Made by a program: the position numbers and the translations under genes
Notes under the pieces: generated by a model
Seen by the model: only the letters and a program-made list of their open reading frames with translations
What the model was told of the DNA's origin: nothing
The model's database searches: none
NCBI GenBank assembly: GCA_945901045.1
Contig: CAMDKK010000003.1
Location: 58,183 to 122,182 of the forward strand
Length of the DNA: 64,000 nt
DNA from: Limnohabitans sp. Rim8
Lineage (GTDB): Bacteria > Pseudomonadota > Gammaproteobacteria > Burkholderiales > Burkholderiaceae_C
Reading direction: 5' to 3'
Shown here: positions 19,620 through 59,223 of the stretch, in pieces
Layout: each line of letters opens with the position of its first letter
How positions within the stretch are numbered: position 1 is the first letter of the stretch

Positions 19620-19675
19620 GAATTTTATTTTGTAAGTTGCCCATACTCAACTTGACTTTTCAAGAAGAGGCAAAA

Positions 19676-21112: not shown

Positions 21113-21124
21113 GGAGTGACCAGC

Positions 21125-21754: not shown

Positions 21755-21763
21755 GGAGTGACC

Positions 21764-21904: not shown

Positions 21905-21940
21905 AGCCATTGAGCGATATGACGACAAAAAGGATTCTGA

Positions 21941-22870: not shown

Positions 22871-22885
22871 ACAGCAGATTGTTGG

Positions 22886-36262: not shown

Positions 36263-36345
36263 TGGCGGTGCGTCTAAAACGTGCTGCTTGAACGTCCATG
36301 CACTGTCGGGGAAGGCGGTGAGGACACACAACTTGTTTGTTTCTT

Positions 36346-41674: not shown

Positions 41675-41675
41675 C

Positions 41676-43332: not shown

Positions 43333-44529
43333 TCAATGACCGCTGAGGACGACTGGAATTTCTTCGGCCGGGGGCGTGTTGCGGCTGCGGCCACAGCGCA
43401 CGATACCGTCGATCATGACCATGCCCACGCCAGGAATATCGCCCAGTTGCACGCTCTCGAGCAAAGTTTTACCTGCCGTGTGCTGGGCGCGGTCCATGAA
43501 GACAAAGTCGGCAGCGCGTCCGACTTCGATCAGGCCGCAGTTGAGATTGCGAATGCGCGCTGTGTTGCCGGTGGCAAAGCAAAACACCAATTCTGCGGGG
43601 ATGTTGGCCAGGCTCGACAGCAGCGCCACCATACGCAGCATGCCCAGCGGTTGCACGCCCGAACCCGCAGGCCCGTCGGTGCCGAGGATCACGCGATGCG
43701 GGCACTTGAGTTCCAGTGCGGCCTTGGCGGCGGCGATGGCCACGCGCTCATTGCCGTTGTGTACGATTTCAATGGCGCGCGAAGACTTTTCGCACAGCTC
43801 ACACACATGGGCTTCAGGCAAAGAGGTGTGGCCGCCGTTGATGTGGCCGATCACGTCAGCATCGGCTTCCAGCACCACGTCTTTGTCGATCATGCCCGAG
43901 CCCGGGATGGACGGACCACCCGTGTGGATTGTGCTCTGAATGCCGTACTTGCGCGCCCAGGCCACCATCTCTTTGGCTTCGTAGCCTGCCTTCACGGAGC
44001 CCAGACCCACCTCGCCGAGCAAGCTCACGCCGGCCTCAGCCAGTTCTTTGAAGTCCTGCTCGGTCATGCCTTTTTCGATGATGGGCGCACCCGCAATCAC
44101 CTTCACGCCGCCAGGGCGAAAATTGTCAAAAGCGCGCTGCGCCGTGATGGCCAGCGCTTTGAGGCCGACGATGTCTTTGGGGCGCCCTGGCAAATGCACT
44201 TCACCGGCAGAGACCATGGTGGTCACGCCACCGTTCATGGTCGAGTCGATCCAGCCGATTTGGTTTTGGCGTGGTGTCCAATCACCAAAAACCGGATGCA
44301 CATGGCTGTCGATCAGGCCAGGGCAAACGCAGGTTTGTCGTGCGTCAATGACTGTTTGCGCGCCCTCCAGATCGCAATCTTTCTCGCGGCCCACCGCGGT
44401 GATCAGGCCGTTGTCGACGACGATGGTGTCGGCTTGCAAAATGGGTTGATCAATGTCGCCTGAAAGCAGCAAGCCGATGTTTTTAATTACGACTTTGCCA
44501 GAAGAGCCAATGGTAGCGATGTCAGCCAT
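43333..44529 (-). CDS. ena: Enamidase (1,4,5,6-tetrahydro-6-oxonicotinate amidohydrolase)
   Basis: 398 residues of the amidohydrolase superfamily. Metal-site motifs: PGLIDSHVHP and TDGP near the C-terminus, with HTGG and GHINGGH supplying further histidines. Long stretches follow Eubacterium barkeri enamidase as I recall it, for example GGVTTMVSAGEVHLPGRPKD, GVKVIAGAPIIEKGMTEQDF and GDIPGVGMVMIDG...SRNTPPAEE. It opens the ring of tetrahydro-6-oxonicotinate, giving 2-formylglutarate and ammonia. It is the last gene of a minus-strand operon with tetR and fpr, opposite the reductase that makes its substrate. Confidence 0.88.
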   Translation of the reverse strand: MADIATIGSSGKVVIKNIGLLLSGDIDQPILQADTIVVDNGLITAVGREKDCDLEGAQTVIDARQTCVCPGLIDSHVHPVFGDWTPRQNQIGWIDSTMNGGVTTMVSAGEVHLPGRPKDIVGLKALAITAQRAFDNFRPGGVKVIAGAPIIEKGMTEQDFKELAEAGVSLLGEVGLGSVKAGYEAKEMVAWARKYGIQSTIHTGGPSIPGSGMIDKDVVLEADADVIGHINGGHTSLPEAHVCELCEKSSRAIEIVHNGNERVAIAAAKAALELKCPHRVILGTDGPAGSGVQPLGMLRMVALLSSLANIPAELVFCFATGNTARIRNLNCGLIEVGRAADFVFMDRAQHTAGKTLLESVQLGDIPGVGMVMIDGIVRCGRSRNTPPAEEIPVVLSGH

Positions 44530-44540
44530 GAAAAAACTCC

Positions 44541-45242
44541 TTAGTGAGCAGGTTGGACGGCCGGGTTCACGACGCGGAACACGGTGTCAAGGACAAAAGA
44601 TTTCCATTGCGCCACGGCCTGTGGGGCGTCGACGTTCTCACCCAAAAAGGCCGTCAAGGTGAAGCGGTTGGACATGTAGAAATAGCCGGTGGCGGCAATC
44701 AGCAAATAGACGTCACGGGCAGAAATATCCGCACGGAACAGACCTTGCGCTACACCGGATTGCAAGATGTCGCCAATCACCGAAATGGCCGGAGACGAGT
44801 ACTCCTTGGCCCGCAGCGATTTGACGATGTGCTTGCCTTTGTGCAGGTTTTCGGTGTTCAGCAGGGTGACAAATTCGGGGTGTGCGCGGTAGTAGTCGAG
44901 CACAAAGTGCACCACCTGTTCCAGCGCTGCCAGCGGTTGGCTCACGTCCAAGGCCAACTCGGCTTCGGCATCGTTCATGCGTCGGTAAATAGTTTCTAGG
45001 ACTTCGATGAACAAGCCTTCCTTGCTGCCGAAGTAGTAGTAAATCATACGGTCATAGGACTTGGCCAAGCGTGAAATTTTTTCCACGCTGCCGCCGTCAT
45101 AGCCATGCTGGGCAAACACTTTGATGGCAGCGCGCAAAATGCTTTCGCGTGTTTGCTGTGCGCTGTGTTCGCGCACGCCCGCCGTGCGTTTGCCGCTCGG
45201 CTTGGCCAAGCGGGTTTGAGGTTGGCGTGCTGCAGTGACCAT
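44541..45242 (-). CDS. TetR-family regulator
   Basis: 233 residues. The N-terminal helix-turn-helix (about 29-75: QQTRESILRAAIKVFAQHGYDGGSVEKISRLAKSYDRMIYYYFGSKEGL) is typical TetR, with an R-M-I/V-Y-Y-Y-F subtype as in RutR-like regulators; the C-terminal ligand domain is about 150 residues. It lies between enamidase and ferredoxin reductase genes and most likely controls the divergent promoters at 46.0-46.2 kb, where a large inverted repeat is present. Confidence 0.9.
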   Translation of the reverse strand: MVTAARQPQTRLAKPSGKRTAGVREHSAQQTRESILRAAIKVFAQHGYDGGSVEKISRLAKSYDRMIYYYFGSKEGLFIEVLETIYRRMNDAEAELALDVSQPLAALEQVVHFVLDYYRAHPEFVTLLNTENLHKGKHIVKSLRAKEYSSPAISVIGDILQSGVAQGLFRADISARDVYLLIAATGYFYMSNRFTLTAFLGENVDAPQAVAQWKSFVLDTVFRVVNPAVQPAH

Positions 45243-45248
45243 GGTGGT

Positions 45249-46022
45249 TTATTTTTCGACGAATGCCCGTTCAATCACAAAATCACCTGGGGTGCTGGTG
45301 TTGCCTTCGACAAAGCCTTGGGCCTCCAGCATGAGCTTGAGGTCATTGAGCATGCCCGGACTGCCACACAACATCACCCGGTCTTGCTGTTGACTCAAGG
45401 GCGGCAAGCCCATGTCTTTGAACAGTTTGCCATTTTCAATCAGTGCCGTCACACGGCCCATGTTGCGGTAAGTCTCGCGGGTGACTGTGGGGTAGTAGCG
45501 TAATTGCTGGCTGATCATTTCGCCCAAGAATTCATGTTGGGGTAAGTGGTCCACGATCAAGTCGTGGTAGGCCAACTCGTCAACTTGCCGTACACCATGC
45601 ACCACCACCACACTTTCGAATTTGGCATAGGTCTCAGGGTCGCGAATGATGCTCAAAAACGGCGCTAACCCCGTGCCGGTGGACAGCAAGTACAGGCGCT
45701 TGGCCGGCGTCAGGTAATCGATCAGCAGGGTCCCTGTGGGTTTCTTGCCCACGATCAGGGTGTCACCCACCTGGATGTGTTGCAGGCGTGAGGTGAGCGG
45801 GCCTTCCTCGACCTTGATGCTCAAAAATTCAAGGTGCTCTTCGTAATTGGGGCTGGCGATGCTGTAGGCCCGCAGCAGAGGTTTGTCGTTCACGCGCAGG
45901 CCAATCATGGTGAAGTGGCCATTGGAAAATCGCAGCGAAGGGTCGCGCGTGGTGGTGAAAGTGAACAGACGGTCTGTCCAGTGGTGCACGCTCAGCACCC
46001 GCTCTTCGTTGAAAGCACTCAT
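45249..46022 (-). CDS. fpr: Ferredoxin-NADP+ reductase (Fpr type)
   Basis: 257 residues. FAD site RAYSIASPNYEEHLEF and the GPLTSRLQHIQVGD region; NADP site STGTGLAPFLSIIRDPET and CGSPGM; C-terminal FVEK, as in the bacterial FprA subclass whose last residues stack near the flavin. It carries electrons between NADPH and ferredoxin. Beside the 6-hydroxynicotinate reductase gene it likely supplies reduced ferredoxin for that step, replacing the fermentative electron supply in clostridia. A housekeeping role cannot be excluded. Confidence 0.92.
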   Translation of the reverse strand: MSAFNEERVLSVHHWTDRLFTFTTTRDPSLRFSNGHFTMIGLRVNDKPLLRAYSIASPNYEEHLEFLSIKVEEGPLTSRLQHIQVGDTLIVGKKPTGTLLIDYLTPAKRLYLLSTGTGLAPFLSIIRDPETYAKFESVVVVHGVRQVDELAYHDLIVDHLPQHEFLGEMISQQLRYYPTVTRETYRNMGRVTALIENGKLFKDMGLPPLSQQQDRVMLCGSPGMLNDLKLMLEAQGFVEGNTSTPGDFVIERAFVEK

Positions 46023-46132
46023 GTTGGTTCAAGCTTGTGGTTAAGGCTGCAAGGGACGATCAAGCCAGTGCAGCATGGGTTAGGAGAAATACGGTTGCGC
46101 AGCAAAACAGGATGCGTTATATTGACTTTTCA

Positions 46133-46170
46133 TGTAGTGATCACAACATTTTTGTTTTGTGAATGCTACA
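46133..46170. promoter_or_regulatory. Large inverted repeat, probable TetR operator
   Basis: TGTAG-N4-CACAA (46133-46146) is mirrored by TTGTG-N4-CTACA (46157-46170), ten bases apart. The left arm also centres on a TGATCA core. A TTGACT at 46122-46127 could be the -35 of the reductase promoter, so binding here would block transcription. It sits between the two divergent operons of the heterocycle cluster. Confidence 0.72.
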
Positions 46171-46228
46171 CAAATTGAAGCCGACGTGCAAGTGTGCACA
46201 TCGGTGATCTGGACATGCTTAACCTGAG

Positions 46229-47824
46229 ATGACCGAACACTCTAAAACCGATGGACTGCCCAGCACCGAGGTGCCTGCATCACCGCAGGTGCTCGAGCGT
46301 GCCAAGCTGCGCAATGAGCGCATGAGTGGCGCCAAAATTGAATGCAACGCCTGCCCGGTGTTGTGTCAAATCTCTGCGGGGCGCGTAGGCGCCTGCGACC
46401 GTTACGCCAACCGCGACGGCTTTTTGGTGCGCGTGGATCCGGTGGTGTTCCTGCGCCGCACGTTGGCGCAAGATGAACCCCTGTTGGTGCCCTTTGCCCC
46501 ACGTGGCGGCGATCAAGATTCGGTGCCTTGGAATGGTGATCTGCTTCACGCTGATCAGGTGTTTGTCACTGGCGTGGGCTCGTCCACCACCTACCCTGAC
46601 TACAAACCCGCGCCCTTCATCGTGTCGTCCCAGGTCAAGGGGGTGGACATGGTGACCGTGGTGACCGAAGGCATCTTCAGTTATTGCAGCATCAAAGTGA
46701 AGATCGATACCGACCGCTATTTGGGCGCTGAACAAGCCAATGTGCGCATGAAAGGCGAGGTGGTAGGCCATGTCACCACGGCAGAGTATGGCTCTCAAAT
46801 GTTGTCCCTGGGCGGTGTGCACCACTTGACGGGGGGCAGTAAAAAAGAAGGCCGCGTGACAGTCGACATGATGCAAGCCTTGGGTAACAAACAGGCGGTG
46901 GCGTTGACCATTGATGGGGGTGCCCAGTTGGTCATTCAGGCGGGATGCGCACCGATCGTCAATGGCGTCGAAGAGCAGCGCATGCGGGTGGGCTGCGGCT
47001 CTGCGGTGGTCGGTATTTTTGCGCGCCAGTTTTGTGGCTTGGTGGACGAGGTGGTGGTGCTGGACGACCACATCACTGGTGTTTTGACCGAGCACCAAGC
47101 CGGCCGCTGCCTGGACATGAAGCCCTCCGGCATTGAAATGGGAGGGCGTAAATCCACGCCAGGGCGTTACTTCCAAGTGGCCAATCCTGGCAATGGCTGG
47201 GGTGGCACTGACATTGCAGATCCTTTGTCGATCATCGAGGGCTGGGACCCCGAGGTGGTCTGGCCCGGCTTGCGCTTGCTGATGACCTCCACCACGGGTG
47301 AGCACGCGGCTTGGTATGTGCTCGATGACAAACTCCAACCGGTTGAGCAAAACATGCCGGCCGAGGTGCGAGCCATCGTGGACCGCATTGGCGAAAACTG
47401 CGAACCTTCACTTTGCAGCGTGATGTTTTTGGGTGGCGCCGGAGGCAGTCTGCGCGCCGGCGTCACAGAAAATCCGGTCTTGCTGACCCGCGCCATCAAA
47501 CAAGCACTGGTCAATGTGACCTGCGGCGGCGCGCCTGCCTTTGTCTGGCCTGGCGGTGGTATCACCGTGATGTCCGACGTGTTGCGCATGCCTGACAACA
47601 GCTTTGGCACCGTGCCGACGCCGGCCATCATTGCACCCATTGAATTCAGCATGCGCTTGTCGGATTACCAAGCCTTGGGTGGGCACATGACTCATGTGCG
47701 ATCACTCGAGGATGTGTTGCGTCACGGCGCCTGGCACAACGAGGGTGCGCCGACCGCGCTGCAATGGTCCGAACTGCCGCAAGACAACAGTTGGCCACTC
47801 GGGCAAGCCCCGATGCTGGGTTAA
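46229..47824 (+). CDS. hnr: 6-Hydroxynicotinate reductase-like iron-sulfur protein
   Basis: 531 residues. An N-terminal cysteine cluster, IECNACPVLCQISAGRVGACDRY (Cys39, 42, 46, 56), should hold a [4Fe-4S] centre. The remainder contains several glycine-rich blocks (GVGSSTTYPDYKPAPFIVSSQVKGVDMVTVVTEG, GGAGGSLRAGVTENPVLLT, WPGGGITVMSDV). I recognise it as the HNR family of nicotinate fermentation, which reduces 6-hydroxynicotinate to tetrahydro-6-oxonicotinate with ferredoxin electrons. The pairing with enamidase, Fpr and a NicAB-like hydroxylase makes the assignment coherent. The ATG at 46229 is the first of the divergent plus-strand operon. Confidence 0.83.
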   Translation: MTEHSKTDGLPSTEVPASPQVLERAKLRNERMSGAKIECNACPVLCQISAGRVGACDRYANRDGFLVRVDPVVFLRRTLAQDEPLLVPFAPRGGDQDSVPWNGDLLHADQVFVTGVGSSTTYPDYKPAPFIVSSQVKGVDMVTVVTEGIFSYCSIKVKIDTDRYLGAEQANVRMKGEVVGHVTTAEYGSQMLSLGGVHHLTGGSKKEGRVTVDMMQALGNKQAVALTIDGGAQLVIQAGCAPIVNGVEEQRMRVGCGSAVVGIFARQFCGLVDEVVVLDDHITGVLTEHQAGRCLDMKPSGIEMGGRKSTPGRYFQVANPGNGWGGTDIADPLSIIEGWDPEVVWPGLRLLMTSTTGEHAAWYVLDDKLQPVEQNMPAEVRAIVDRIGENCEPSLCSVMFLGGAGGSLRAGVTENPVLLTRAIKQALVNVTCGGAPAFVWPGGGITVMSDVLRMPDNSFGTVPTPAIIAPIEFSMRLSDYQALGGHMTHVRSLEDVLRHGAWHNEGAPTALQWSELPQDNSWPLGQAPMLG

Positions 47825-47834
47825 GGCGCGAATC

Positions 47835-48755
47835 GTGAGTGCTTCTCGTCAACGCTTGTCTGAGGGCCGCTGGCATTTTCAGCATGGCCCCATGGACATC
47901 GTGATCGGTGCCGACCCCTTGGGCCCCGCAGGTCAAGGGGCGCTCGCCGAGGCGCACGAACATGCGTGGGCGCGGTTTGTGCCCCTGCTGTCAGAACTAA
48001 TGGATGAATGGGCCTTGCTGCGTTTGCCGGTGCAGGCAGGGCACCCTTGTCCATTGCAAGGCGGGGTGGCGCGTCGCATGTGGCAAGCCTGCTTGCCTTG
48101 GGCGGCGCAGCAGTTCATCACGCCCATGGCGGCGGTGGCAGGCAGCGTCGCCCAAGAGCTGATCCGAAGCTATGAACGCCCTGGCGTGGCCCGTGCTTGG
48201 GTGAACAATGGCGGCGACATCGCCTTGCACCTGACGCCCGGGCAGTCTGCCCGCGTGGGCTTGTATGCCGACCTGGCACGTTTGCAAGCGCACGAATGCA
48301 TGCAGGGATTGAGCCTAGATGGTGCATTTGAAGTCACGCACACCATGCCCGTGCGTGGCGTGGCCACCAGCGGTTGGCGTGGCCGCAGCTTTTCATTCGG
48401 TATTGCCGACAGCGTGACGGTGTTGGCCGCCACCGCCGCGCAAGCCGACGCGGCAGCCAGCATCATCGCCAATGCGGTGAATGTGGAGCATGCGGGGATC
48501 GTGCGTCAGTCGGCCCAGACTTTGCGTGATATGACCGATTTGGGTGACTTGGCCGTCACCGTGGATGTGCCTCGCTTGCCTGTGGCCTGGGTGCAGCAAG
48601 CCTTGCAATCCGGTTTGCAATGTGCGCGAGAATGCCAAGCTGAGGGTTTTATATCAGGAGCGGTATTGGTGTGCCAAGGGCAGTCCCTGAAACTGCCGAT
48701 GTTTTCGGGGAACGCGTCTGTTTTTTTTCAAGACGAGGGCTTGGCTTTGGCCTGA
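47835..48755 (+). CDS. UPF0280 family protein (ApbE-like fold)
   Basis: 306 residues from a GTG at 47835 (AAGG upstream); the longer frame is inside hnr. The sequence shows UPF0280/ApbE-related features: AGSVAQELIRSY, WVNNGGDIALHL, and the GVATSGWRGRSFSFGIADSVTVLA block, which resembles the product-release and metal loop of ApbE flavin transferases. The biochemical function is not established. It lies 10 bases after hnr, so a role in maturing that enzyme (for example attaching a flavin) or in the following ring-cleavage steps is possible. Confidence 0.75.
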   Translation: MSASRQRLSEGRWHFQHGPMDIVIGADPLGPAGQGALAEAHEHAWARFVPLLSELMDEWALLRLPVQAGHPCPLQGGVARRMWQACLPWAAQQFITPMAAVAGSVAQELIRSYERPGVARAWVNNGGDIALHLTPGQSARVGLYADLARLQAHECMQGLSLDGAFEVTHTMPVRGVATSGWRGRSFSFGIADSVTVLAATAAQADAAASIIANAVNVEHAGIVRQSAQTLRDMTDLGDLAVTVDVPRLPVAWVQQALQSGLQCARECQAEGFISGAVLVCQGQSLKLPMFSGNASVFFQDEGLALA

Positions 48756-48775
48756 GAAATGTTTATGGTGATGCA

Positions 48776-49420
48776 ATGATTGAAATAAGACGTGTCTTTA
48801 CCCAAGTGGAAGAAATCTTTCACGAGTTCGGCCCTGTGCCTGAACAAGCTTTGCTGCGCGGCGCGATCGGTGCGGTGCTGACCAACCCTTATGCCGGCCG
48901 TTATGAGGCGAACATCTTGCCCATGATGGATGCGCTGCAAGACGTGGGCATTGACATGGCACGCCGTTTGCTCGCCGCCATGGATGTGCCTGCCGAGCGC
49001 ATTGCCACCTACGGCAAAGGCGCGATTGTGGGCGAACATGGCGAGCTCGAGCATGGCGCACTGTGGCACGTGCCTGGGGGTTATGCCATGCGCGAGTTGT
49101 TGGGCTGGAAGGGCGACCGCGAAGCCTACAAAAGCGGCAAGGTCGACGACAAGCCAACGGGTCAACCGGCCAATGCCTTGTCCATCGTGCCTTCGACCAA
49201 AAAAGTGGGGCCTCCGGGCGCTGCGCTCGACCTGCCGCTGACCAATATCAACGCTTCTTATGTGCGCGGCCAGTTCGACGCCATGGAAGTACGGGTGCCC
49301 GGTTCGCCGCTGCCCGATGAAATCGTCTTTATCCTCGCCATGACCACCGGTTACCGCATCCACGCCCGTGTAGGCGGGTTGCGCGCCGAGGACATCAGCC
49401 AGTGGAACGGCTTGCGCTGA
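48776..49420 (+). CDS. DUF1185 'amino acid synthesis' family protein, paralogue 1
   Basis: 214 residues from ATG 48776; the longer frame overlaps the UPF0280 gene. Contains LTNPYAGRYEANILPMM, TYGKGAIVGEHGELEHGALWHVPGG, PLTNINASYVRGQFDAMEVRV and RVGGLRAEDI, all shared with the gene that follows. The family has known structures but no proved reaction as far as I recall. The conserved E-x-x-H-x-A/G-A segment may hold catalytic residues. Twenty bases downstream of UPF0280 in the heterocycle operon, it may act on 2-formylglutarate or another late intermediate. Confidence 0.75.
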   Translation: MIEIRRVFTQVEEIFHEFGPVPEQALLRGAIGAVLTNPYAGRYEANILPMMDALQDVGIDMARRLLAAMDVPAERIATYGKGAIVGEHGELEHGALWHVPGGYAMRELLGWKGDREAYKSGKVDDKPTGQPANALSIVPSTKKVGPPGAALDLPLTNINASYVRGQFDAMEVRVPGSPLPDEIVFILAMTTGYRIHARVGGLRAEDISQWNGLR

Positions 49421-49459
49421 TTTCCAACTTAGCCCACAGAACCTCAGGAGACTTCAGCG

Positions 49460-50044
49460 ATGAGCGCCAACATTCGAAAAATAATTGTCCAAGTGGACGA
49501 GATCCGTCAAGAAATGGGTCGTGCCGTTTCCCCACCTACGCGCCGCGCCCTGGCCATGGCGGTGATCGCCAACCCCTATGCCGGTCGCTACAGCGAAAAC
49601 CTGGACGAGCTGATCGCCATCGGTGAAGAGTTGGGCGCGTTGCTCGGCCAAAAATGTGTTCAAGCTTTAAGCATCGAGCCCAGCCAAGCGCAAAGCTATG
49701 GTAAGGCCGCGATCGTGGGCGAAGCTGGTGAGCTCGAACATGCGGCCGCCATATTGCATCCTAAATTGGGTGCACCGCTGCGCGCGGCAGTTGAAAAAGG
49801 CGCCGCCTTGGTACCCTCAGCGAAAAAGCGCGGCGGCATGGGAACGACCATCGATGTGCCCTTGGGTCACAAAGATGCCGCCTTTGTGCGCAGCCATTTC
49901 GATGCCATGGAAGCACGCGTGAGCGATGCACCGCGGGCACAAGAAATTGTGGTTGCAGTGGTCGTTACCGACAGCGGTCGCCCTTTGCCCCGCATTGGCG
50001 GTTTGCAAGCGCAGGACATTCAAGGTCAGGACGGTTTGCGCTGA
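49460..50044 (+). CDS. DUF1185 'amino acid synthesis' family protein, paralogue 2
   Basis: 194 residues with a good SD (CAGGAGA). It repeats the motifs of paralogue 1: NPYAGRYSENL, SYGKAAIVGEAGELEHAAAILHP, PLGHKDAAFVRSHFDAMEARV and RIGGLQAQDI, but lacks the 25-residue middle insertion around WKGDREAYKSGK. The two are therefore diverged tandem copies and may form a hetero-oligomer. Function unknown; location in the operon ties it to heterocycle use. Forty-five bases later the transporter genes begin. Confidence 0.75.
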   Translation: MSANIRKIIVQVDEIRQEMGRAVSPPTRRALAMAVIANPYAGRYSENLDELIAIGEELGALLGQKCVQALSIEPSQAQSYGKAAIVGEAGELEHAAAILHPKLGAPLRAAVEKGAALVPSAKKRGGMGTTIDVPLGHKDAAFVRSHFDAMEARVSDAPRAQEIVVAVVVTDSGRPLPRIGGLQAQDIQGQDGLR

Positions 50045-50089
50045 AACGCAAGCCTATTTTTTGTTTTAACCCACCCCAGGAGATTCTCC

Positions 50090-51295
50090 ATGAAAGCAGT
50101 CAACACCCTTCGTCGCGCCATGGCGCTGACGGCCCTGACTTGGGCGGCCTTGCCCGCGCAGGCCCAAAACATGATCAAAATCGGCGAGATCAACAGCTAC
50201 AAAGCCCAACCCGCATTTTTGGAACCCTACAAAAAAGGCATGGAGTTGGCCATTGACGAAATCAATGCGACCGGTGGCGTCATGGGTAAAAAGTTTGAGC
50301 TCATCACCCGAGATGACAACGCCAACCCGGGCGATGCTGTGCGTGTGGCCGAAGAACTGATCTCGCGCGAAAAAATTGACGTGCTGACCGGCACCTTCTT
50401 GTCCAACACCGGTTTGGCCGTGGCCGACTTTGCCAAACAAAAGAAAGCTTTTTTCTTGGCCGGTGAGCCTTTGACCGACAAGCTCACATGGCAAGGTGGC
50501 AACGCCTACACCTACCGTTTGCGTCCTGGCACCTATATGCAAGCGGCCATGCTGGTGCCTGAGGCGGTCAAGCTGAAGAAAAAGCGCTGGGCGGTGGTTT
50601 ACCCCAACTACGAATACGGTCAATCGGCTGCAGCAGCGTTCAAAAACTTGCTCAAAGCAGCCCAACCCGACGTTGAGTTTGTGGCTGAACAGGCCCCGCC
50701 CTTGGGCAAACTCGATGCAGGCAGTGTGGTGCAAGCCCTGGCGGATGCCAAACCTGATGCCATCTACAACGTCTTGTTTGGTGCCGACCTGTCCAAGTTC
50801 GTGCGTGAAGGCAACACCCGCGGTTTATTCCAAGGCCGCGAAGTGGTCAGCATGTTGACCGGTGAGCCCGAGTATCTCGACCCTCTGAAAGACGAAACCC
50901 CCAATGGTTGGATCGTGACCGGCTACCCTTGGAGTTCGCACAACACGACCGAGCATAAAGCGTTCTTGCAGTCGTACCAAGCCAAGTTCAAAGACTATCC
51001 ACGTCTGGGCTCGGTGGTGGGTTACGTGATGATCAAATCGGTCGCAGCCGGGGTGGCGAAAGCCCAAAGCACCGACTCTGAAAAGTTGCGCGTGGCCTTT
51101 GCTGGGCTGCAGGTGGACACGCCTTTCGGCAAAATCACTTACCGCGCTGAAGACCACCAGTCCACCATGGGCGCTTTTGTGGGCCGCACCAAAAATGACA
51201 ACGGCAAAGGCGTGATGGTGGATGCCCGTTACCTGGACGGGGCACTGTACCAACCGCCAGCTGCTGAAGTGAAAAAATCACGCGCGGCAGACTGA
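50090..51295 (+). CDS. ABC transporter substrate-binding protein, branched-chain amino acid (LivJ) type
   Basis: 401 residues with a signal peptide (MKAVNTLRRAMALTALTWAALPAQA). The mature part has the type I periplasmic-binding fold: IKIGEINSYKAQPAFLEPYKKGMELAIDEINATGGVMGKK, DDNANPGDAVRVAEELISREKIDVLTGTFLSNTGLAVADFA. Such receptors in catabolic operons often bind aromatic acids rather than leucine, so nicotinate or a hydroxylated derivative is a fair guess. SD CCAGGAGA. A hairpin follows in the gap before the permease gene. Confidence 0.9.
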   Translation: MKAVNTLRRAMALTALTWAALPAQAQNMIKIGEINSYKAQPAFLEPYKKGMELAIDEINATGGVMGKKFELITRDDNANPGDAVRVAEELISREKIDVLTGTFLSNTGLAVADFAKQKKAFFLAGEPLTDKLTWQGGNAYTYRLRPGTYMQAAMLVPEAVKLKKKRWAVVYPNYEYGQSAAAAFKNLLKAAQPDVEFVAEQAPPLGKLDAGSVVQALADAKPDAIYNVLFGADLSKFVREGNTRGLFQGREVVSMLTGEPEYLDPLKDETPNGWIVTGYPWSSHNTTEHKAFLQSYQAKFKDYPRLGSVVGYVMIKSVAAGVAKAQSTDSEKLRVAFAGLQVDTPFGKITYRAEDHQSTMGAFVGRTKNDNGKGVMVDARYLDGALYQPPAAEVKKSRAAD

Positions 51296-51325
51296 CAACT
51301 TCACTTCTCCCCTCTGTGACCTCAA

Positions 51326-51352
51326 GCCCCTTTGGATCGGGTTCCAAGGGGG
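51326..51352 (+). terminator. Hairpin between receptor and permease genes (attenuator-like)
   Basis: CCCCTTTGGA (51327-51336) pairs with TCCAAGGGGG (51343-51352) around a six-base loop, followed by a modest T run at about 51368-51374. This would protect or partly terminate the mRNA, giving more receptor than permease. Confidence 0.55.
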
Positions 51353-51389
51353 TTGTCATGCTCAGAATTTTTCTCGAAATGATCCTTTC

Positions 51390-53300
51390 ATGAGTTTTTC
51401 CGGATTTTTCGTTCAGCTTTTAAATGGGCTTGCAGCGGCGTCTTCGCTGTTTTTTGTGGCGGCGGGTTTGTCCTTGATTTTTGGTGTCACGCGCATTGTT
51501 AATTTTGCGCATGGCTCCTTTTTCATGGCTGGCATTTACATCGCCTACACGGTAGTGGACCGCTTGGCGGGCAGCATCGGCTTTTGGCCGTCGATCGCGC
51601 TGGCGGCTCTGGCGGTGGGCGTGCTGGGGGCCTTCATAGAGATGCTGCTGCTGCGCCGCATTTACAAAGCGCCTGAACTGTTTCAGCTGCTGGCCACCTT
51701 CGCTTTGGTGCTGGTCCTGAAAGACGCGATGCTGTGGCTCTGGGGGCCTGAAGAGTTGCTTGGCCCTCGTGCGCCGGGTCTGGCCGGTTCGGTGTCTATT
51801 TTGGGGCGGCAATTCCCGACTTACGATTTGTTTTTGATTGTGGCGGGGCCCGTGGTGTTGGCGCTGCTGTGGTTGCTGCTTACCCGGACCCGTTTGGGCA
51901 CCTTGGTGCGGGCGGCTACGCAAGACCGCGAGATGGTCAGCGCCTTGGGCGTCAATCAAGCTTGGTTGTTCACAGCGGTGTTCGCTTTAGGCGCGCTTTT
52001 GGCCGGTTTGGGCGGCGCCTTGCAGTTGCCGCGTGAACCCGCGAATTTGGAAATGGATTTGAACATCATCGGCGCCGCCTTTGTGGTGGTGGTGGTGGGC
52101 GGCATGGGCTCGATTCCGGGTGCGTATTTGGCGGCGTTGCTGATCGCCGAAGTCAAGGCTGTGTGCATTTGGCTGGGCATGGTCGATGTGTTCGGCGTCG
52201 CAGTTTCATTCTCCAAACTCACCTTGGTGGTGGACTTTGTGGTGATGGCCGTGGTGCTGGTGTGGCGGCCTTGGGGCTTGCTGGGCAAACCGCAGGCCCC
52301 GAGCCGTTATATTGGCTTGCGTGAGGAGCCTCTGCGCCCCGCCAGCAAGGGCTATGTGGGGGTGGCCGCGCTGCTGGGTCTGGTGCTGGTAATCATGCCT
52401 TGGCTCACCGCCAGTTCGCCTTACACCACGGTGTTGCTGATTGATTTGTTGATTGCGGCCCTGTTTGCGGCCAGCCTGCACTTCATCATGGGGCCGGCGG
52501 GCATGCATTCCTTTGGCCATGCCGCCTATTTTGGTTTGGGCGCATATGGCGCAGCACTGTTGGTGCGCTCGTTGGGCTTGTCGATGGAAATGGCCTTGCT
52601 GGCGGCGCCCTTGGTGGCCGCTTTGGGGGCCTTGGTGTTTGGCTGGTTTGCCGTGCGCTTGTCCGGCGTGTACCTGGCCATGCTGACTTTGGCATTTGCC
52701 CAAATTACGTGGGCGGTGACCTTTCAATGGGACAGCTTTACCGGGGGGAGCAATGGCCTGACCGGCGTCTGGCCGTCTGAGCTCTTCAGCGATAAGCGCA
52801 TGTACTACTGGCTGACTTTGTGCTTGGTGATGGCGGGTGTAGTGTGGCTGCGCCGGGTGTTGTTTTCGCCCTTTGGCTATGCGCTGCGCGCCGGACGCGA
52901 TTCGTTGCTGCGTGCCGATGCGATCGGCATCGACGTCAAGCGCATGCAGTGGTTGGCCTTCATTTTGGCGGGGGGCGTGGCCGGTTTGGCGGGGGCTTTG
53001 TATGCCTTTTCCAAAGGCAGCATCTCGCCCGAAACCATGAGCGTGGGCAAGTCGGTGGACGGCTTGGTCATGGTGTTGCTGGGCGGTATTCAAACCTTGG
53101 CGGGTCCGGTGGTGGGGGCCTTCAGCTTCACTTGGTTGCATGACGTGGTGGCGCGCAACACCGATTACTGGCGCGCCATGTTGGGCTCCGTGATTTTGAT
53201 TTTGGTGTTGTTGTTCCCGCAAGGCATTGCCGGATCGGTGCAGTTGTTGTGGGAACGCCTGCGCCACAAAACCTCGCCGCAAGAGGGAGCCGCACGATGA
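51390..53300 (+). CDS. Fused branched-chain-type ABC permease LivH-LivM
   Basis: 636 residues combining two permease domains. Residues 1-300 are LivH-like (AAGLSLIFGVTRIVNFAHGSFFMAGIY, QDREMVSALGVNQAWLFTAVFALGALLAGLGGAL, GGMGSIPGAYLAALLIAEV). Residues about 315-636 are LivM-like (GMHSFGHAAYFGLGAYGAALLV, RAGRDSLLRADAIGIDVKRMQWLAFILAGGVAGLAGALYAF, GGIQTLAGPVVGAF). Usually these are separate proteins; fused versions do occur. It overlaps the ATPase start by four bases. Confidence 0.93.
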   Translation: MSFSGFFVQLLNGLAAASSLFFVAAGLSLIFGVTRIVNFAHGSFFMAGIYIAYTVVDRLAGSIGFWPSIALAALAVGVLGAFIEMLLLRRIYKAPELFQLLATFALVLVLKDAMLWLWGPEELLGPRAPGLAGSVSILGRQFPTYDLFLIVAGPVVLALLWLLLTRTRLGTLVRAATQDREMVSALGVNQAWLFTAVFALGALLAGLGGALQLPREPANLEMDLNIIGAAFVVVVVGGMGSIPGAYLAALLIAEVKAVCIWLGMVDVFGVAVSFSKLTLVVDFVVMAVVLVWRPWGLLGKPQAPSRYIGLREEPLRPASKGYVGVAALLGLVLVIMPWLTASSPYTTVLLIDLLIAALFAASLHFIMGPAGMHSFGHAAYFGLGAYGAALLVRSLGLSMEMALLAAPLVAALGALVFGWFAVRLSGVYLAMLTLAFAQITWAVTFQWDSFTGGSNGLTGVWPSELFSDKRMYYWLTLCLVMAGVVWLRRVLFSPFGYALRAGRDSLLRADAIGIDVKRMQWLAFILAGGVAGLAGALYAFSKGSISPETMSVGKSVDGLVMVLLGGIQTLAGPVVGAFSFTWLHDVVARNTDYWRAMLGSVILILVLLFPQGIAGSVQLLWERLRHKTSPQEGAAR

Positions 53301-54067
53301 GCAATGCACTCTTGCAAGTGAAGAATCTGGGCAAGTCCTTTGGTGGGGTCAAGGCGGTGGACGGCATCAGCTTTGATCTGGCCCCAGGCGAATTGTTGGC
53401 CTTGATCGGGCCCAACGGCGCGGGCAAGTCCACCACCTTTAACATGGTGAACGGGCAGCTGCGCGCCGATCAAGGCTCCATTCTGCTGCTGGGCCAAGAG
53501 CTGGTGGGGTGCAAGCCGCGCGCCATTTGGCGTCAGGGCGTGGGACGTACTTTTCAGATTGCCGAAACCTTCGCCTCGCTCACTGTGGTGGAAAACGTGC
53601 AAATGGCGCTGCTCTCGCATGACGACTTGCTGCTGTCGATGTGGCGGCGTGCGGCCGACCACCGCCGGGGCGACGCGCTGGCCCTGCTGGATCAGGTGGG
53701 CATGAAGCCCCAGGCCGACCGGCCCTGCAACGTGTTGGCCTATGGCGACGTCAAGCGCGTCGAGTTGGCTGTGGCCATGGCCAACAGCCCCAAACTGCTG
53801 TTGATGGACGAGCCCACCGCCGGAATGGCGCCCAAAGAGCGCAAAGACTTGATGGCGCTGACCAAAGAACTGGTGGTGCAACGCGGCATGGCCGTGCTGT
53901 TCACCGAGCACAGCATGGACGTGGTCTTTGCCTATGCCGACCGCATGATCGTGCTGGCCCGTGGCCGCTTGATCGCTGAGGGCAAGCCGCTGGAAATTCG
54001 TGATCACCCCAAGGTGCAAGAAGTTTATTTCGGCACTGGGAAGACTTTTGAGAAATCCTCCACATGA
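53297..54067 (+). CDS. Branched-chain-type ABC transporter ATPase LivG
   Basis: 256 residues from ATG 53297 (overlapping the permease stop). Walker A GPNGAGKSTTFN, Q-loop region GRTFQIAETFASLTVVENVQ, and Walker B LLLMDEPTAGMAP. The signature is degenerate: where LSGGQ/LSYGEQ is expected the sequence reads VLAYGDVKRVELA, as in the LivG subfamily with LAYGxxRxLE. Switch region TEHSMDVVF. Pairs with LivF. Confidence 0.93.
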   Translation: MSNALLQVKNLGKSFGGVKAVDGISFDLAPGELLALIGPNGAGKSTTFNMVNGQLRADQGSILLLGQELVGCKPRAIWRQGVGRTFQIAETFASLTVVENVQMALLSHDDLLLSMWRRAADHRRGDALALLDQVGMKPQADRPCNVLAYGDVKRVELAVAMANSPKLLLMDEPTAGMAPKERKDLMALTKELVVQRGMAVLFTEHSMDVVFAYADRMIVLARGRLIAEGKPLEIRDHPKVQEVYFGTGKTFEKSST

Positions 54068-54798
54068 GCGCATCCGACATCTTGCTTGAAGCCAAGGGCC
54101 TGGCCGCTTGGTATGGCGCAGCCCAAATTTTGTACGACGTGGACTTGCAAGTGCGCCGCGGCGAAGTGGTGGCCCTTATGGGGCGCAACGGCGCGGGCAA
54201 GTCCACCACGCTCAAAGCCTTGATCGGCATGCTGGCGCGCAGACGTGGACAAGTGACTTTCATGGGCCATGACCTCTCGCACAGCGAGCCGCACCACGCG
54301 GCCCGCTTGGGCCTGGGCTTTGTGCCCGAGGACCGGCGCATATTCACCGACCTCACCGTCATGGAAAATCTGGAGGTCGGTAAGCAGAAGGTGCGGCAAT
54401 GGCCTGATGGCAAGGTGGCGCCTCATTGGACGCCTGAGCGCTTGTTTGAACTCTTTCCCAACCTGGGTGAAATGCCGCAACGCCCCGGCGGCAGCATGAG
54501 TGGCGGTGAACAACAAATGCTGACCGTGGCCCGTACCTTAATGGGCAATCCCTTTTTGGTCTTGCTCGACGAGCCCTCTGAAGGCGTAGCGCCGGTCATT
54601 GTGGAGCAAATGGCGCACATGATTCTGGCGCTCAAAGCCCAGGGCGTGAGCATCTTGCTGTCCGAGCAAAACATGCATTTTGCAGAGTTGGTTTCCGACC
54701 GGGCCTATGTGCTTGAAAAAGGCCAAATCCGCTACCAAGCCAGCATGCAGGATTTAGCCGCCAATGAAGAAGTCCGGCGCAATTACCTCAGCGTTTGA
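54064..54798 (+). CDS. Branched-chain-type ABC transporter ATPase LivF
   Basis: 244 residues, ATG overlapping livG by four bases. Walker A GRNGAGKSTTLKAL, GLGFVPEDRRIFTDLTVMENL (typical LivF), signature MSGGEQQML, Walker B FLVLLDEPSEGVAP, and switch LSEQNMHFA. It ends 15 bases before the hydroxylase small subunit gene, so uptake and first oxidation are co-transcribed. Confidence 0.94.
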   Translation: MSASDILLEAKGLAAWYGAAQILYDVDLQVRRGEVVALMGRNGAGKSTTLKALIGMLARRRGQVTFMGHDLSHSEPHHAARLGLGFVPEDRRIFTDLTVMENLEVGKQKVRQWPDGKVAPHWTPERLFELFPNLGEMPQRPGGSMSGGEQQMLTVARTLMGNPFLVLLDEPSEGVAPVIVEQMAHMILALKAQGVSILLSEQNMHFAELVSDRAYVLEKGQIRYQASMQDLAANEEVRRNYLSV

Positions 54799-54813
54799 AC
54801 TTCGGCGCACGCT

Positions 54814-55308
54814 ATGTATCCCCCAACAGTCTTACAGGTCAATCAAGTTCGGTGCGAACTGCCGCAGGCTGCGGGCCGCGCCAATTTGCTTCAGGTCCTG
54901 CGCAATGACTTGCAACTCAATGGCCCTAAATTCGGCTGCGGTTTGGGGGAGTGCGGCGCTTGCACCGTGTGGGTCGATGGTGTGGCCGCTCGGGCCTGTG
55001 TGATTCCTGCCCACGGCGTGGCCGGACGCGAGATCACCACTTTGGAGGGCTTGACCCCATTGCACGGCGTGGCGGGAGAGTTGCATCCGGTGCAACAAGC
55101 TTTTGTCGATGCCCAAGCGGCGCAGTGCGGTTACTGCCTCAATGGCATGGTGATGATGGCTGCGGCGTTGCTGGCACGCGAGCCCAATCCCAGTGAGGCC
55201 GATGTGCGCCGCGAACTGTCGGGTAATTTATGCCGCTGCGGCACGCACATTGAAATTGTGCATGCGGTGCTGTTGGCGGCCAAGCGGATGAAGGAGTCCA
55301 CCGCATGA
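54814..55308 (+). CDS. nicA: Nicotinate dehydrogenase-like small subunit, two [2Fe-2S] clusters
   Basis: 164 residues of the xanthine-oxidase-family iron-sulfur subunit: plant-type cluster cysteines in KFGCGLGECGACTVWVDG and RAC, then the helical domain cluster CGYCLNGM and GNLCRCGTH. It carries electrons from the molybdenum centre to the cytochrome c part of the large subunit. No separate FAD subunit is encoded, as in the Pseudomonas putida NicAB system. Its stop overlaps the large-subunit start by four bases. The molecular family is certain; nicotinate as substrate is inferred from hnr and ena. Confidence 0.9.
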   Translation: MYPPTVLQVNQVRCELPQAAGRANLLQVLRNDLQLNGPKFGCGLGECGACTVWVDGVAARACVIPAHGVAGREITTLEGLTPLHGVAGELHPVQQAFVDAQAAQCGYCLNGMVMMAAALLAREPNPSEADVRRELSGNLCRCGTHIEIVHAVLLAAKRMKESTA

Positions 55309-58300
55309 CGCGCCGTGCCGAGCAAGCTCAGCGCCGAGCAGATTTTCATGCCGCACAAGGCGTGCTGCTGATCACCCGTGAGCCGCCGCCCGCGCCGCCA
55401 ACCGTCCAAGGCCAGCCCTTGGCCGTGCCGAGTAATCCGGCGGAGGGCGTTGAAATTTTGCTGGCCGTGTGGGACGACGGCAGTGTCACCGCGCTGAACG
55501 GCCATGTCGACCTGGGCACCGGCATTCGCACGGCCTTGTCGCAATTGGTGGCCGACGAGTTGGATGTGGACATGGCCGATGTGCACATGGTGCTGGGCAG
55601 CACCACGCTGGCACCCAACCAGGGCGCGACCATTGCCAGTGCTTCGCTGCAAATTCATTCAGCCCCCTTGCGCGCCGCGGCGGCCCAGGCGCGTGCCTGG
55701 TTGTTGGCCCGTGCAGCGCAGCAACTGAACGTCTTGCCCAGCGCGCTGCAAGTGCAAGGCGGTGTGGTGACGGTACAAGCCGAGCCGACGCGCCAGTGCC
55801 GCTTGGGCGAGCTGCTCACGGGCCAGCATGTGGCGCTGACTTTGGCGCTCGCCACGCCACTCAAAGCTGCCAGTGAACACCGTGTCATCGGTCAGTCGGT
55901 GGATCGTGTGGACATTCCGGCCAAGGTCACGGGCGGGCAGGTGTATGTGCACGACATGCGGGTGCCCGGCATGCTGCATGGGCGCGTGGTGCGCCCGCCC
56001 TATGCCGGGGCGGACCATGGTGACTTCATCGGCAATACGCTGGAGTCGGTGGACGAGTCGTCGATCGCGCACATCCCTGGCGTGCGCGCGGTGGTGGTGA
56101 TTCATGACTTTGTCGGCGTAGTGGCCGAGCGCGAAGAACAAGCCGAGCAAGCCATGCGCGAATTGCGCGTGCAGTGGAAAGACTGGCCCGGTCTGCCGCC
56201 CCTGGGTGACTTGCAGCAGGCACTGCGCAACAACCCGTCTACCCAGCGCCGCTTGGTCGATGAAGGCGATGTGGACGGCGCCCTGGCCCAAGCTGCGCAG
56301 CGCTTGTCGCGGACCTATGTCTGGCCTTACCAGTTGCATGCGTCGATCGGACCGTCCTGCGCCTTGGCGCAATGGCATGGGGACGCCGTGCCAGGTGAGC
56401 CCAATTTGACCGTCTGGGCGGGCACGCAAAACCCGCATGTGCTGCGTGCGGACTTGGCCAAGCTGCTGGGCTTGAATGAGATTGTGGTCGACGTGTTGCG
56501 CATGGAAGCTGCAGGCTGCTACGGCCGCAATGGCGCCGACGATGTGGCCGCCGATGCAGCGCTGTTGGCCCGCGCGGTGGGCGCGCCGGTGCGGGTCCAG
56601 CTCACTCGCGAACAAGAACACGCCTGGGAGCCCAAGGGCGCAGCGCAGCTCATGGATGTGCGCGGCGGGCTGAACGCAGACGGCACGGTCGCAGCTTACG
56701 ATTTTGAAACCAGTTACCCCTCCAACGGCGCACCTACTTTGGCCTTGCTGCTGACGCGCACTGTCGAGCCCTTGGCGCAGGCCTATGAGATGGGCGACCG
56801 CACCGCGCGCCCACCTTATGCCTTTGAGAACCTGCGCGTCAGCGTCAACGACATGGCGCCCATCTTGCGGGCTTCGTGGTTGCGTGGTGTGTCGGCTTTG
56901 CCCAACTCGTTTGCGCACGAAAGTTATATCGACGAGCTGGCCGCTGCCGCCGGGGTCGATCCGGTTGAGTTTCGTTTGCAGTACCTGCAAGACCCCCGCG
57001 CATCTGAGTTGCTGGCCGCCACGGCCGAGCGTGCGGGCTGGCAGGCTCGAACGGCGCCGCGCCAACACACTGTGGAAGGTACGGGCGGTGACGTTTTGCG
57101 CGGCCAAGGCGTGGCCTATGCGCGGTATGTGCACAGCAAATGGCCGGGATTTGGCGCGGCCTGGGCCGCCTGGGTGGCCGACGTGGAGGTGAATCGCCGC
57201 ACGGGTGAGGTGCATGTGAGCCGCGTGGTGGTCGGTCACGACGCAGGCATGATGATCAACCCGGCCGGCGTTCAGCAGCAGATTCATGGCAATGTGCTGC
57301 AAACCACCAGCCGCGCCCTGAAAGAAGAACTGCAAATTGAGCCGCGTAAAAATACAGTGGCCACGCAGGAGTGGGGCAGTTATCCGATTTTGAATTTCCG
57401 CGATGTGCCGGTGATCGAGGTGGTGACACTGCCGCGCCAAAACGAAGCGCCTTTGGGGGCAGGGGAGTCGTCCTCGGTGCCGGGCACGGCAGCCATTGCG
57501 AATGCCATTTTTGATGCCACAGGCGTGCGCTTTCGAGAGCCACCGTTCACGCCTGAGCGCGTGCGCGCCGCTTTGCAAAGTCAAGCCATTTCACCTGAAG
57601 TGACTCCGTCTGAAAAGACCACTCAACCCCCGACCCCGTTGATACCCGAAGGCGTGCGTTGGCCCTTGTCATTGCCGCGCTGGTCGCGCGTGGGTGCCTT
57701 GCTCGCGGGCCTGATCGGCACGACCATGGCCTTGCTGGGTGGGCGCGCGGTCATTGCGCCGCTTCACTACAGCCCCAGCGCGCTGTACACCGCTGAGACG
57801 ATCGAGCGTGGCCGGCAACTGGCCGCAGTGGGCAACTGTGTGGTCTGTCATACGGCACCCGGCGGCATAGCCAATGCCGGGGGCCGCGCCATGCGCACGC
57901 CGTTTGGCACCATTTACACCACCAACCTCACGCCCGATCCTGCGCACGGCATCGGGCAATGGTCCTTCAGCGCGTTTCAGCGCGCCATGCGCGAAGGCAT
58001 TTCGCGCGACGGGCGTCACCTGTACCCGGCGTTTCCTTTCACGTCCTTCGCCAAAATGAACGACGACGATCTGGTCGCGCTCTATGGCTACCTGATGGCG
58101 CAACCGGCAGTGGCCTCGGCGCCGCCCAAAACAGCGCTGGCTTTTCCGTTCAACCAACGCGCCTTCATGGCCAGTTGGAACGGTTTGTTTCATGACCCTC
58201 AACCCTTTGTGCCAACGCCAGGTCAATCGGTGGAATGGAACCGTGGCGCTTACCTGGTGGATGGCGTGGGCCATTGCGGCGCCTGCCACACACCGCGCAA

Positions 58301-58973
58301 TGCCTTGGGTGCAGAGCGCAGCGGAGCGGCGTACTTGAGTGGGGCCATGGTGGACGGTTGGGAAGCCCCGGCCTTGACCGCGCTGTCACGCGCGCCCGTG
58401 CCGTGGAGCGCCGACGAGTTTTACCACTACCTGCGCAATGGCCACACCGAGCACCACGGCATGGCGGCAGGCACCATGGCGCCGGTGGTGCAGCAATTGG
58501 CGCAAGTGCCGGATGCTGACATCCGCGCCATGGCCACTTACTTGGCCAGCTTCAACCAGCCGGCCACCGACACCGCCATCGCCGCCCAAGCCAAGCTGCT
58601 GGTGCAACAAGCGGCCGAGCAGCGCAGCAAGTTGGTGGGCAGTTCCGGTCAGCGAATGTTCGAAGGCGCTTGCAGTGCCTGTCACCACGAAGGAGACGGC
58701 CCCAAACTGCTGGGGGTGAACCGCCCCTTGGCGCTCAACACCAATTTGCACAGCACCCAGCCCGACAACCTGCTGCGCGTGATTTTGGACGGCGTGCAAG
58801 ACGTGCCCGGCCCGGATGTGGGCTTTATGCCCGGCTTTCGCCACGCCTTGAACGATGCACAAATCGCCGACTTGGCGCGCTATATGCGTCAGCGTTATGC
58901 GCCGGCACAGCCCGCCTGGTCAGACCTTGAAAGCGCGGTAGCCCGGGTGCGTTCGACCCTCAGCGCCCACTGA
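55305..58973 (+). CDS. nicB: Nicotinate dehydrogenase-like molybdopterin subunit fused to triheme cytochrome c
   Basis: 1222 residues. Residues about 1-760 form a molybdopterin-binding aldehyde oxidase/IorB-type domain (GHVDLGTGIRTALSQLVADELDV, RMEAAGCYGRNGADDVAADAALLA, APLGAGESSSVPGTAAIANAIFDATGVR with the conserved C-terminal glutamate loop). A linker with one membrane segment (about 783-815) leads to three cytochrome c sites: CVVCH (about 845), CGACH (about 991) and CSACH (about 1123). P. putida NicB has the same build, hydroxylating nicotinate at C6 with electrons going to cytochrome c. The domain order implies a periplasmic or membrane-facing heme part, although no N-terminal export signal is evident. 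Confidence 0.9.
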   Translation: MTRRAEQAQRRADFHAAQGVLLITREPPPAPPTVQGQPLAVPSNPAEGVEILLAVWDDGSVTALNGHVDLGTGIRTALSQLVADELDVDMADVHMVLGSTTLAPNQGATIASASLQIHSAPLRAAAAQARAWLLARAAQQLNVLPSALQVQGGVVTVQAEPTRQCRLGELLTGQHVALTLALATPLKAASEHRVIGQSVDRVDIPAKVTGGQVYVHDMRVPGMLHGRVVRPPYAGADHGDFIGNTLESVDESSIAHIPGVRAVVVIHDFVGVVAEREEQAEQAMRELRVQWKDWPGLPPLGDLQQALRNNPSTQRRLVDEGDVDGALAQAAQRLSRTYVWPYQLHASIGPSCALAQWHGDAVPGEPNLTVWAGTQNPHVLRADLAKLLGLNEIVVDVLRMEAAGCYGRNGADDVAADAALLARAVGAPVRVQLTREQEHAWEPKGAAQLMDVRGGLNADGTVAAYDFETSYPSNGAPTLALLLTRTVEPLAQAYEMGDRTARPPYAFENLRVSVNDMAPILRASWLRGVSALPNSFAHESYIDELAAAAGVDPVEFRLQYLQDPRASELLAATAERAGWQARTAPRQHTVEGTGGDVLRGQGVAYARYVHSKWPGFGAAWAAWVADVEVNRRTGEVHVSRVVVGHDAGMMINPAGVQQQIHGNVLQTTSRALKEELQIEPRKNTVATQEWGSYPILNFRDVPVIEVVTLPRQNEAPLGAGESSSVPGTAAIANAIFDATGVRFREPPFTPERVRAALQSQAISPEVTPSEKTTQPPTPLIPEGVRWPLSLPRWSRVGALLAGLIGTTMALLGGRAVIAPLHYSPSALYTAETIERGRQLAAVGNCVVCHTAPGGIANAGGRAMRTPFGTIYTTNLTPDPAHGIGQWSFSAFQRAMREGISRDGRHLYPAFPFTSFAKMNDDDLVALYGYLMAQPAVASAPPKTALAFPFNQRAFMASWNGLFHDPQPFVPTPGQSVEWNRGAYLVDGVGHCGACHTPRNALGAERSGAAYLSGAMVDGWEAPALTALSRAPVPWSADEFYHYLRNGHTEHHGMAAGTMAPVVQQLAQVPDADIRAMATYLASFNQPATDTAIAAQAKLLVQQAAEQRSKLVGSSGQRMFEGACSACHHEGDGPKLLGVNRPLALNTNLHSTQPDNLLRVILDGVQDVPGPDVGFMPGFRHALNDAQIADLARYMRQRYAPAQPAWSDLESAVARVRSTLSAH

Positions 58974-59223
58974 GTCCGACTTTGAGTTCGATCAGCGCCT
59001 CAACTGGTGACCGTGCAAAAAGGTGATTCTGTCTCGCTGACGGCCAGCTGTGCGCCCTGCACACCCGGCGCACCGCTAAGCCCTCTTGTGAACAGCGCAT
59101 TTTGGGGGTTGATCGGCAAGGCTGGATCGGCAAGGTACGGCCTGACTGGGGCGACGACAAGGGTTTCTATATGGGTTGAGGGCTCTTTCAAAGGGCTCTT
59201 CCAAGTTGCGATACTTGGCCACA

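Follow-up and report, generated by a model that had tools for sequence, protein, structure and literature searches.

A probable Azorhizobium-type nicotinate cluster in Limnohabitans sp. Rim8 and the linkage of the ApbE-like UPF0280 protein to 6-hydroxynicotinate reductase homologues

The 64,000-nucleotide stretch of Limnohabitans sp. Rim8 DNA analysed here (the window) carries, at positions 43333-58973, homologues of two nicotinate-fermentation enzymes of Eubacterium barkeri together with a hydroxylase of cytochrome-linked architecture. The locus raises two questions: is this a new hybrid of an anaerobic and an aerobic pathway, and what is the role of the UPF0280 protein encoded next to the 6-hydroxynicotinate reductase (HNR) homologue? 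The genes for the HNR homologue, an enamidase homologue, a molybdenum (Mo) hydroxylase and an ATP-binding cassette (ABC) importer are found together, which completes the Azorhizobium-type gene set. We consider it very probable that this is an aerobic nicotinate catabolic cluster of the Azorhizobium type, with the route and the part for UPF0280 that we propose below.

The product of 43333..44529 (minus strand; Pfam Amidohydro_1) had E. barkeri enamidase as its top PDB match in phmmer (2vun, 'ENAMIDASE', E 2.4e-109, residues 11-391), with a hydantoinase as runner-up at 8.7e-05. It retains the D-x-H-x-H, HTGG, HINGG and G-x-D stretches of 2vun, which we take to be metal ligands. This agrees with the enamidase assignment in a preliminary description of the window, and the protein presumably opens the ring of 1,4,5,6-tetrahydro-6-oxonicotinate by hydrolysis. 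The HNR homologue (46229..47824, plus strand) matched nothing in Pfam or NCBIfam at E <= 0.001 and nothing credible in PDB, where its profile reached an E of 0.28 at best. It was identified through its plasmid homologues: in 26 plasmid records they are annotated as '6-hydroxynicotinate reductase' (17), as 'hypothetical protein' (3) or not at all (6), and on this basis the earlier HNR assignment stands. Alignments showed a Cx2Cx3Cx9C motif at C39, C42, C46 and C56, and conserved C153, C256 and C391. Its AF2 (AlphaFold 2) model was weak (pLDDT 63.9) and had no Foldseek match at E <= 0.001, so no fold was assigned. A relationship of HNR to the flavin transferase ApbE was unsupported (hhalign probability 0.5 against ApbE and 0.16 against UPF0280), and none of 50 pattern matches in viral contigs was confirmed as HNR.

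NicAB-type nicotinate dehydrogenases pair a [2Fe-2S] subunit with a Mo subunit that carries cytochrome c domains, and the cluster hydroxylase fits this architecture. The gene for its [2Fe-2S] subunit (NicA-like, 54814..55308, plus strand; Fer2_2 2.1e-27) lies just before that of a NicB-like molybdopterin subunit with a fused tri-heme cytochrome c (55305..58973, plus strand; MoCoBD_1/2 and Cytochrom_C). CXXCH occurs three times in the latter protein, at residues 845, 991 and 1123. The three c-type hemes proposed earlier are thus accounted for. Passages of PMC10331938 describe several nicotinate dehydrogenases with cytochrome c and others with a flavoprotein subunit. The ferredoxin-NADP+ reductase (FNR, Fpr-like; 45249..46022, minus strand) was also recognised, by NCBIfam PRK10926 (E 3.4e-44; 151 bits, under the equivalog cut-off of 390).

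How does this set compare with known systems? The nic (maleamate) pathway of Pseudomonas putida uses the NicAB hydroxylase and ring oxygenation by NicC/NicX. The hydroxylase architecture here is likewise NicAB-like, but HNR and enamidase stand where P. putida has NicC/NicX. The first three genes of the E. barkeri pathway are said to occur in nine Proteobacteria, and its nicotinate dehydrogenase is of the FAD/Se four-subunit type. By contrast, the hydroxylase here is cytochrome-linked, with the Mo subunit fused to the tri-heme cytochrome c, and the FAD (flavin adenine dinucleotide) subunit of the four-subunit type was absent among the cluster open reading frames (ORFs) scanned. The late B12-branch enzymes of E. 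barkeri were not seen among the cluster genes either, with no dedicated search made for them. The Azorhizobium hydroxylase feeds a respiratory chain with c-type cytochromes. HNR and enamidase homologues are what the cluster has in common with the E. barkeri fermentation (Alhapel et al. 2006).

According to PMC3511419, the nicotinate clusters of Azorhizobium, Bradyrhizobium japonicum, Rhodopseudomonas palustris HaA2 and strain SG-6C hold the genes of the first three steps together with those of an ABC transporter and of two functionally uncharacterised proteins. The paper also reports the transient appearance of 6-hydroxynicotinate in SG-6C, a member of the Bradyrhizobiaceae, puts its homologue at 42% identity to E. 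barkeri HNR, and cites the Azorhizobium work (Kitts et al. 1989, 1992), in which the ring is reduced to tetrahydro-oxonicotinate and the carbon leaves via glutarate. In an excerpt of PMC9304392, the route is common to E. barkeri and Azorhizobium. Since such clusters were described in Azorhizobium and Bradyrhizobiaceae in 2012 (PMC3511419), the hybrid cluster is not new. Homology and conserved context support the gene identities and the three steps of the hybrid route proposed earlier; the implied novelty is unsupported, as these two papers already describe cluster and route. Placing the pathway correctly keeps it from being mistaken for a new hybrid. Features that may set our cluster apart from that of Azorhizobium and SG-6C, though possibly shared there too, are the fused permease, the pair of AA_synth genes, and the FNR and TetR genes next to HNR.

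From these genes we infer the following route, with its substrates, electron donor and electron acceptor. The ABC importer would take up nicotinate or a related pyridinecarboxylate. The NicAB-like hydroxylase would form 6-hydroxynicotinate and hand electrons on to the respiratory chain by way of its c-type hemes. HNR, supplied by FNR/ferredoxin, would reduce the ring to 1,4,5,6-tetrahydro-6-oxonicotinate; that NADPH/ferredoxin is the donor is suggested by FNR as a neighbour. The enamidase homologue would then hydrolyse this product to 2-formylglutarate, which would proceed to glutarate and glutaryl-CoA, while UPF0280 would attach or insert the HNR flavin. The genome encodes a glutaryl-CoA dehydrogenase (2.8e-188 to 3eom), which is consistent with, though not specific for, the glutarate exit; directly beside it there was no match to the CoA-transferase family PF02515. 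Because the Azorhizobium route passes through glutarate, the late anaerobic enzymes would not be needed. The cbb3 oxidase noted earlier in the window was recovered within 19637-24349 (ccoN at 788 bits, cut-off 583, plus ccoO and ccoG).

Next, we looked at how the locus is distributed. HNR was found in 9 of 60 related genomes (own included) and 7 of 36 within the genus, so the cluster is patchy. Across Pseudomonadota it occurred in 38 of 397 genomes and 20 of 231 genera; this first look scored the top 3 (HNR) or top 5 (UPF0280) candidates in most genomes, and weak relatives may have escaped it. We compared 128 loci: 8 from plasmids, 80 from GTDB contigs and 40 from other genomes. The GTDB loci, all Burkholderiales or betaproteobacterial by title, are the best 80 of at least 595 HNR relatives in the contig scan. 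The order enamidase-TetR-FNR-HNR-UPF0280 was present in 51/80 GTDB, 5/40 other-genome and 1/8 plasmid loci, some of the GTDB loci without the full order being cut by contig ends. Its recurrence argues against chance, and the three proportions indicate that the arrangement is mainly a Burkholderiales one; it also occurs on a named Comamonadaceae plasmid. An FNR match in divergent orientation adjoined HNR in 61/80 GTDB loci. In the 50 GTDB loci (of 80) that exceed 21 kb, enamidase was present in 48, FNR in 37 and UPF0280 in all 50.

The UPF0280 gene (47835..48755, plus strand; DUF375) matched PRK04334.1-2 (NF003322) with 362 bits (cut-off 290). Its start, GTG 47835, was picked by homology, as the listed ORF begins at 47694. 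The preliminary description mentioned neither this gene nor the two AA_synth genes after it. UPF0280 was above cut-off in the identical 38 of 397 genomes as HNR (genome lists compared by eye). Weak matches, far under the cut-off, were seen in two HNR-less proteobacteria (G294 and G371), and below-cut-off matches in two methanogens among 14 control genomes. In two of the genomes one partner is imperfect: the HNR match of G075 is divided between two frames and the UPF0280 match of G384 contains a stop. UPF0280 lay downstream of HNR on the same strand in 127/128 loci, the exception (L048) being a contig end, and was the next match in 125/128, a MarR-like match intervening in L022 and L181. The gap between the tblastn matches ranged from -127 to 549 bases (median 18). 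Since the loci are related, these locus counts are not independent, and the count of genera is the fairer measure. On plasmids, HNR matched 26 records and UPF0280 27. A UPF0280 without HNR lies on the Hydrogenophaga sp. BPS33 plasmid NZ_CP044550.1 (L269); it follows an IS1071 transposase directly, in a stretch repeated at 4 places on the plasmid, and so looks like a cut-off cluster fragment.

UPF0280 is, by profile comparison and modelling, a member of the ApbE superfamily. Its profile aligned to an ApbE profile (13 sequences) with an hhalign probability of 96.1 and an E of 3.1e-9 for one pair, over the NxGGD, ATSG, SVTV and AD-T stretches. Pfam ApbE (PF02424) matched 43 of 50 UPF0280 proteins at E <= 0.1 (best 1.3e-6); the protein of the window gave E 0.0082 and 16.1 bits, under the curated cut-off of 25.6. 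The AF2 model was confident (pLDDT 93.1, pTM 0.91). Foldseek returned its own family first (2o34, DUF375), and then ranks 3-41 were all ApbE, FmnB or Ftp chains, with E from 3.3e-05 (7esb) to 1.7e-02 (1vrm 1.7e-04). The template-modelling (TM) scores were just 0.27 to 0.54 and the root-mean-square deviations large, so the domains are arranged differently than in ApbE or the match is partial.

The catalytic triad of ApbE is given in passages of PMC12052999 as Asp285-Ser241-His257. In UPF0280, S179 and D205 are kept in 96/96 rows, as are the NxGGD and ATSG motifs, and from the aligned motifs S179 and D205 apparently correspond to Ser241 and Asp285. UPF0280 thus shares with ApbE, FmnB and Ftp the fold, the NxGGD, ATSG and AD-T motifs and the apparent triad Ser and Asp. 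It differs in lacking the catalytic-His/DPxTG loop and in its gene standing directly after HNR, a protein without a recognised target motif.

What, then, could UPF0280 do? E. barkeri HNR reportedly holds a covalent flavin. With this and the ApbE fold, UPF0280 becomes the best candidate for installing the HNR flavin, and from fold and linkage it most likely handles that flavin, by attachment or insertion. Our own genome gave no ApbE match. No ApbE above cut-off was found in 10 of the 29 other HNR genomes examined either (11/30 with our own), and in these 11 genomes UPF0280 is therefore the only ApbE-like candidate seen. The other 19 of the 29 have a canonical ApbE, which could serve HNR there instead of UPF0280. 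In its most specific form our proposal is tentative and, in our judgement, nearly evenly balanced: UPF0280 would work in the cytoplasm as a flavin transferase of the ApbE type without the His, or as an insertion factor, dedicated to HNR and acting on a non-canonical site, within a portable HNR-AA_synth module to which bacteria join different hydroxylases and one or the other ring opener, enamidase or HyuA/HyuB.

Two observations speak against it and would suit an HNR chaperone or subunit that binds FAD/AMP without being catalytic. The H-x-x-DPxTG stretch with the ApbE catalytic His (His257 in the Vc protein) aligns to a gap in UPF0280, and the ApbE target motif, scanned as D-x-x-[ST]-G-[AS]-[ST] (slightly looser than D-x-x-[ST]-G-A-[ST]) in tblastn stretches instead of whole ORFs, was absent from all 127 HNR stretches. 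It was also absent from 293 AA_synth/FNR tblastn stretches. Against a non-catalytic protein stand the invariant NxGGD, ATSG, S179 and D205. Moreover, R12 (96/96) and H14 (93/96) are conserved and might, speculatively, replace the lost His. We regard the non-catalytic role as a serious but doubtful alternative.

It is also conceivable, though rather unlikely, that the adjacency reflects mere operon conservation unrelated to the HNR flavin. AA_synth, with no known flavin role, is almost equally linked (37 of 38 HNR genomes, not G192), and the sub-cut-off UPF0280 matches in the two methanogen controls and two HNR-less proteobacteria would fit as well. Yet AA_synth was found in 74 of the 397 genomes, 37 of them HNR-less, whereas no HNR-less genome had UPF0280 above cut-off, and the 11/30 HNR genomes without an ApbE above cut-off also speak against this reading.

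The name 'UPF0280', alone or with ApbE, was not found in the literature searched, which left subscription papers mostly outside. Matches to 'DUF375' look like longer DUF375x names, and neither DVU1097 nor MJ1526 was among those listed. Among the papers listed for HNR with flavinylation, none had both. The link between UPF0280 and HNR is the part of this locus worth following, as it proposes a function for the UPF0280 family and a source of the covalent flavin of HNR.

Around the constant HNR-UPF0280 pair, usually with AA_synth, both the hydroxylase and the ring opener vary: the former is NicAB-like or of an FAD/Mo type, the latter enamidase or HyuA/HyuB. Each hydroxylase type is found with each ring opener: NicAB with enamidase in L018 and with HyuAB in L021 and L176, and FAD/Mo with enamidase in L023 and L025 and with HyuAB in L019, L024 and L190. 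Enamidase together with both HyuA and HyuB was seen in 0/125 tabulated loci, although L103 combines enamidase with a HyuA-like match. In a phylum sample of 37 loci, enamidase was present in 15 and a HyuA match in 9, never together, and 13 had neither, the last perhaps partly because the stretches are 20 kb; the exclusion would have a chance of 0.004 if the loci were independent, which, being related, they are not. HyuA and HyuB (hydantoinase/oxoprolinase type) without an enamidase match were found in L019, L020, L021, L022, L024, L176, L181, L185, L188, L190 and L191. These loci may open the ring with a non-homologous enzyme or act on a different substrate. L183, L189 and L193 have neither enamidase nor HyuAB, and an Amidase (PF01425) in L193, from 10 chosen ORFs, is a candidate for a third ring opener.

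This variability is among the points that count against the nicotinate assignment. Since HNR modules occur with another hydroxylase and with HyuA/HyuB replacing enamidase, substrates may vary, and '6-hydroxynicotinate reductase' labels may span several of them. Relatives of NicB-like enzymes are numerous, with matches in 1223 plasmid records, which makes the hydroxylase substrate uncertain. FNR does not accompany every HNR (62/80 GTDB, 14/40 other-genome and 5/8 plasmid loci). The HNR identity is drawn from annotated plasmid homologues, and the covalent flavin is reported for the HNR of E. barkeri alone. Elsewhere in the genome, the maleamate-pathway genes and the late genes of E. barkeri may be present, and the 26 FAD_binding_3 matches could include NicC. 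Still, that the cluster degrades another N-heteroaromatic (a different pyridinecarboxylate or a 2-pyridone) by Mo hydroxylation, ring reduction and lactam hydrolysis, as the four hydroxylase/opener combinations and the broad urea/branched-chain type of the importer would allow, is improbable, given the closeness of the enamidase to the characterised E. barkeri enzyme and the similar gene set that in SG-6C and Azorhizobium is tied to the use of nicotinate.

The remaining cluster genes complete the picture. A TetR-family regulator (44541..45242, minus strand; Pfam TetR_N and TetR_C_29) separates enamidase and FNR. Downstream of UPF0280 on the plus strand lie two AA_synth paralogues (PF06684, DUF1185), at 48776..49420 (PF06684 1.6e-61; ATG start at 48776 inferred, the listed ORF beginning at 48671) and 49460..50044 (PF06684 1.4e-72; 2qtp 2.4e-85). 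Passages of PMC2954203 tie AA_synth to amino-acid metabolism through its fold and gene neighbours, and the HNR neighbourhood is a further clue to its function. The ABC importer, borne out by Pfam/NCBIfam matches as described earlier, follows on the same strand: a substrate-binding protein (50090..51295; Peripla_BP_6 2.3e-68), a fused permease with UrtB-like and UrtC-like halves (51390..53300) and two ATPases (53249..54067, start putative, and 54064..54798).

Beside the enamidase gene, 36337-43274 holds cobalamin-related genes for a BtuB-like receptor, periplasmic binding proteins, an ABC ATPase and cobyric acid synthase. Beyond the hydroxylase, the ORF at 59007-59597 has a partial match to MiaA (IPP transferase; residues 64-143) and may be a gene fragment. 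It is followed by an L-cysteine desulfhydrase, Cds1-like, at 59623-60696 (553.6 bits, slightly below the cut-off of 600) and a Fic/DOC-family protein of the death-on-curing type at 62127-62855.

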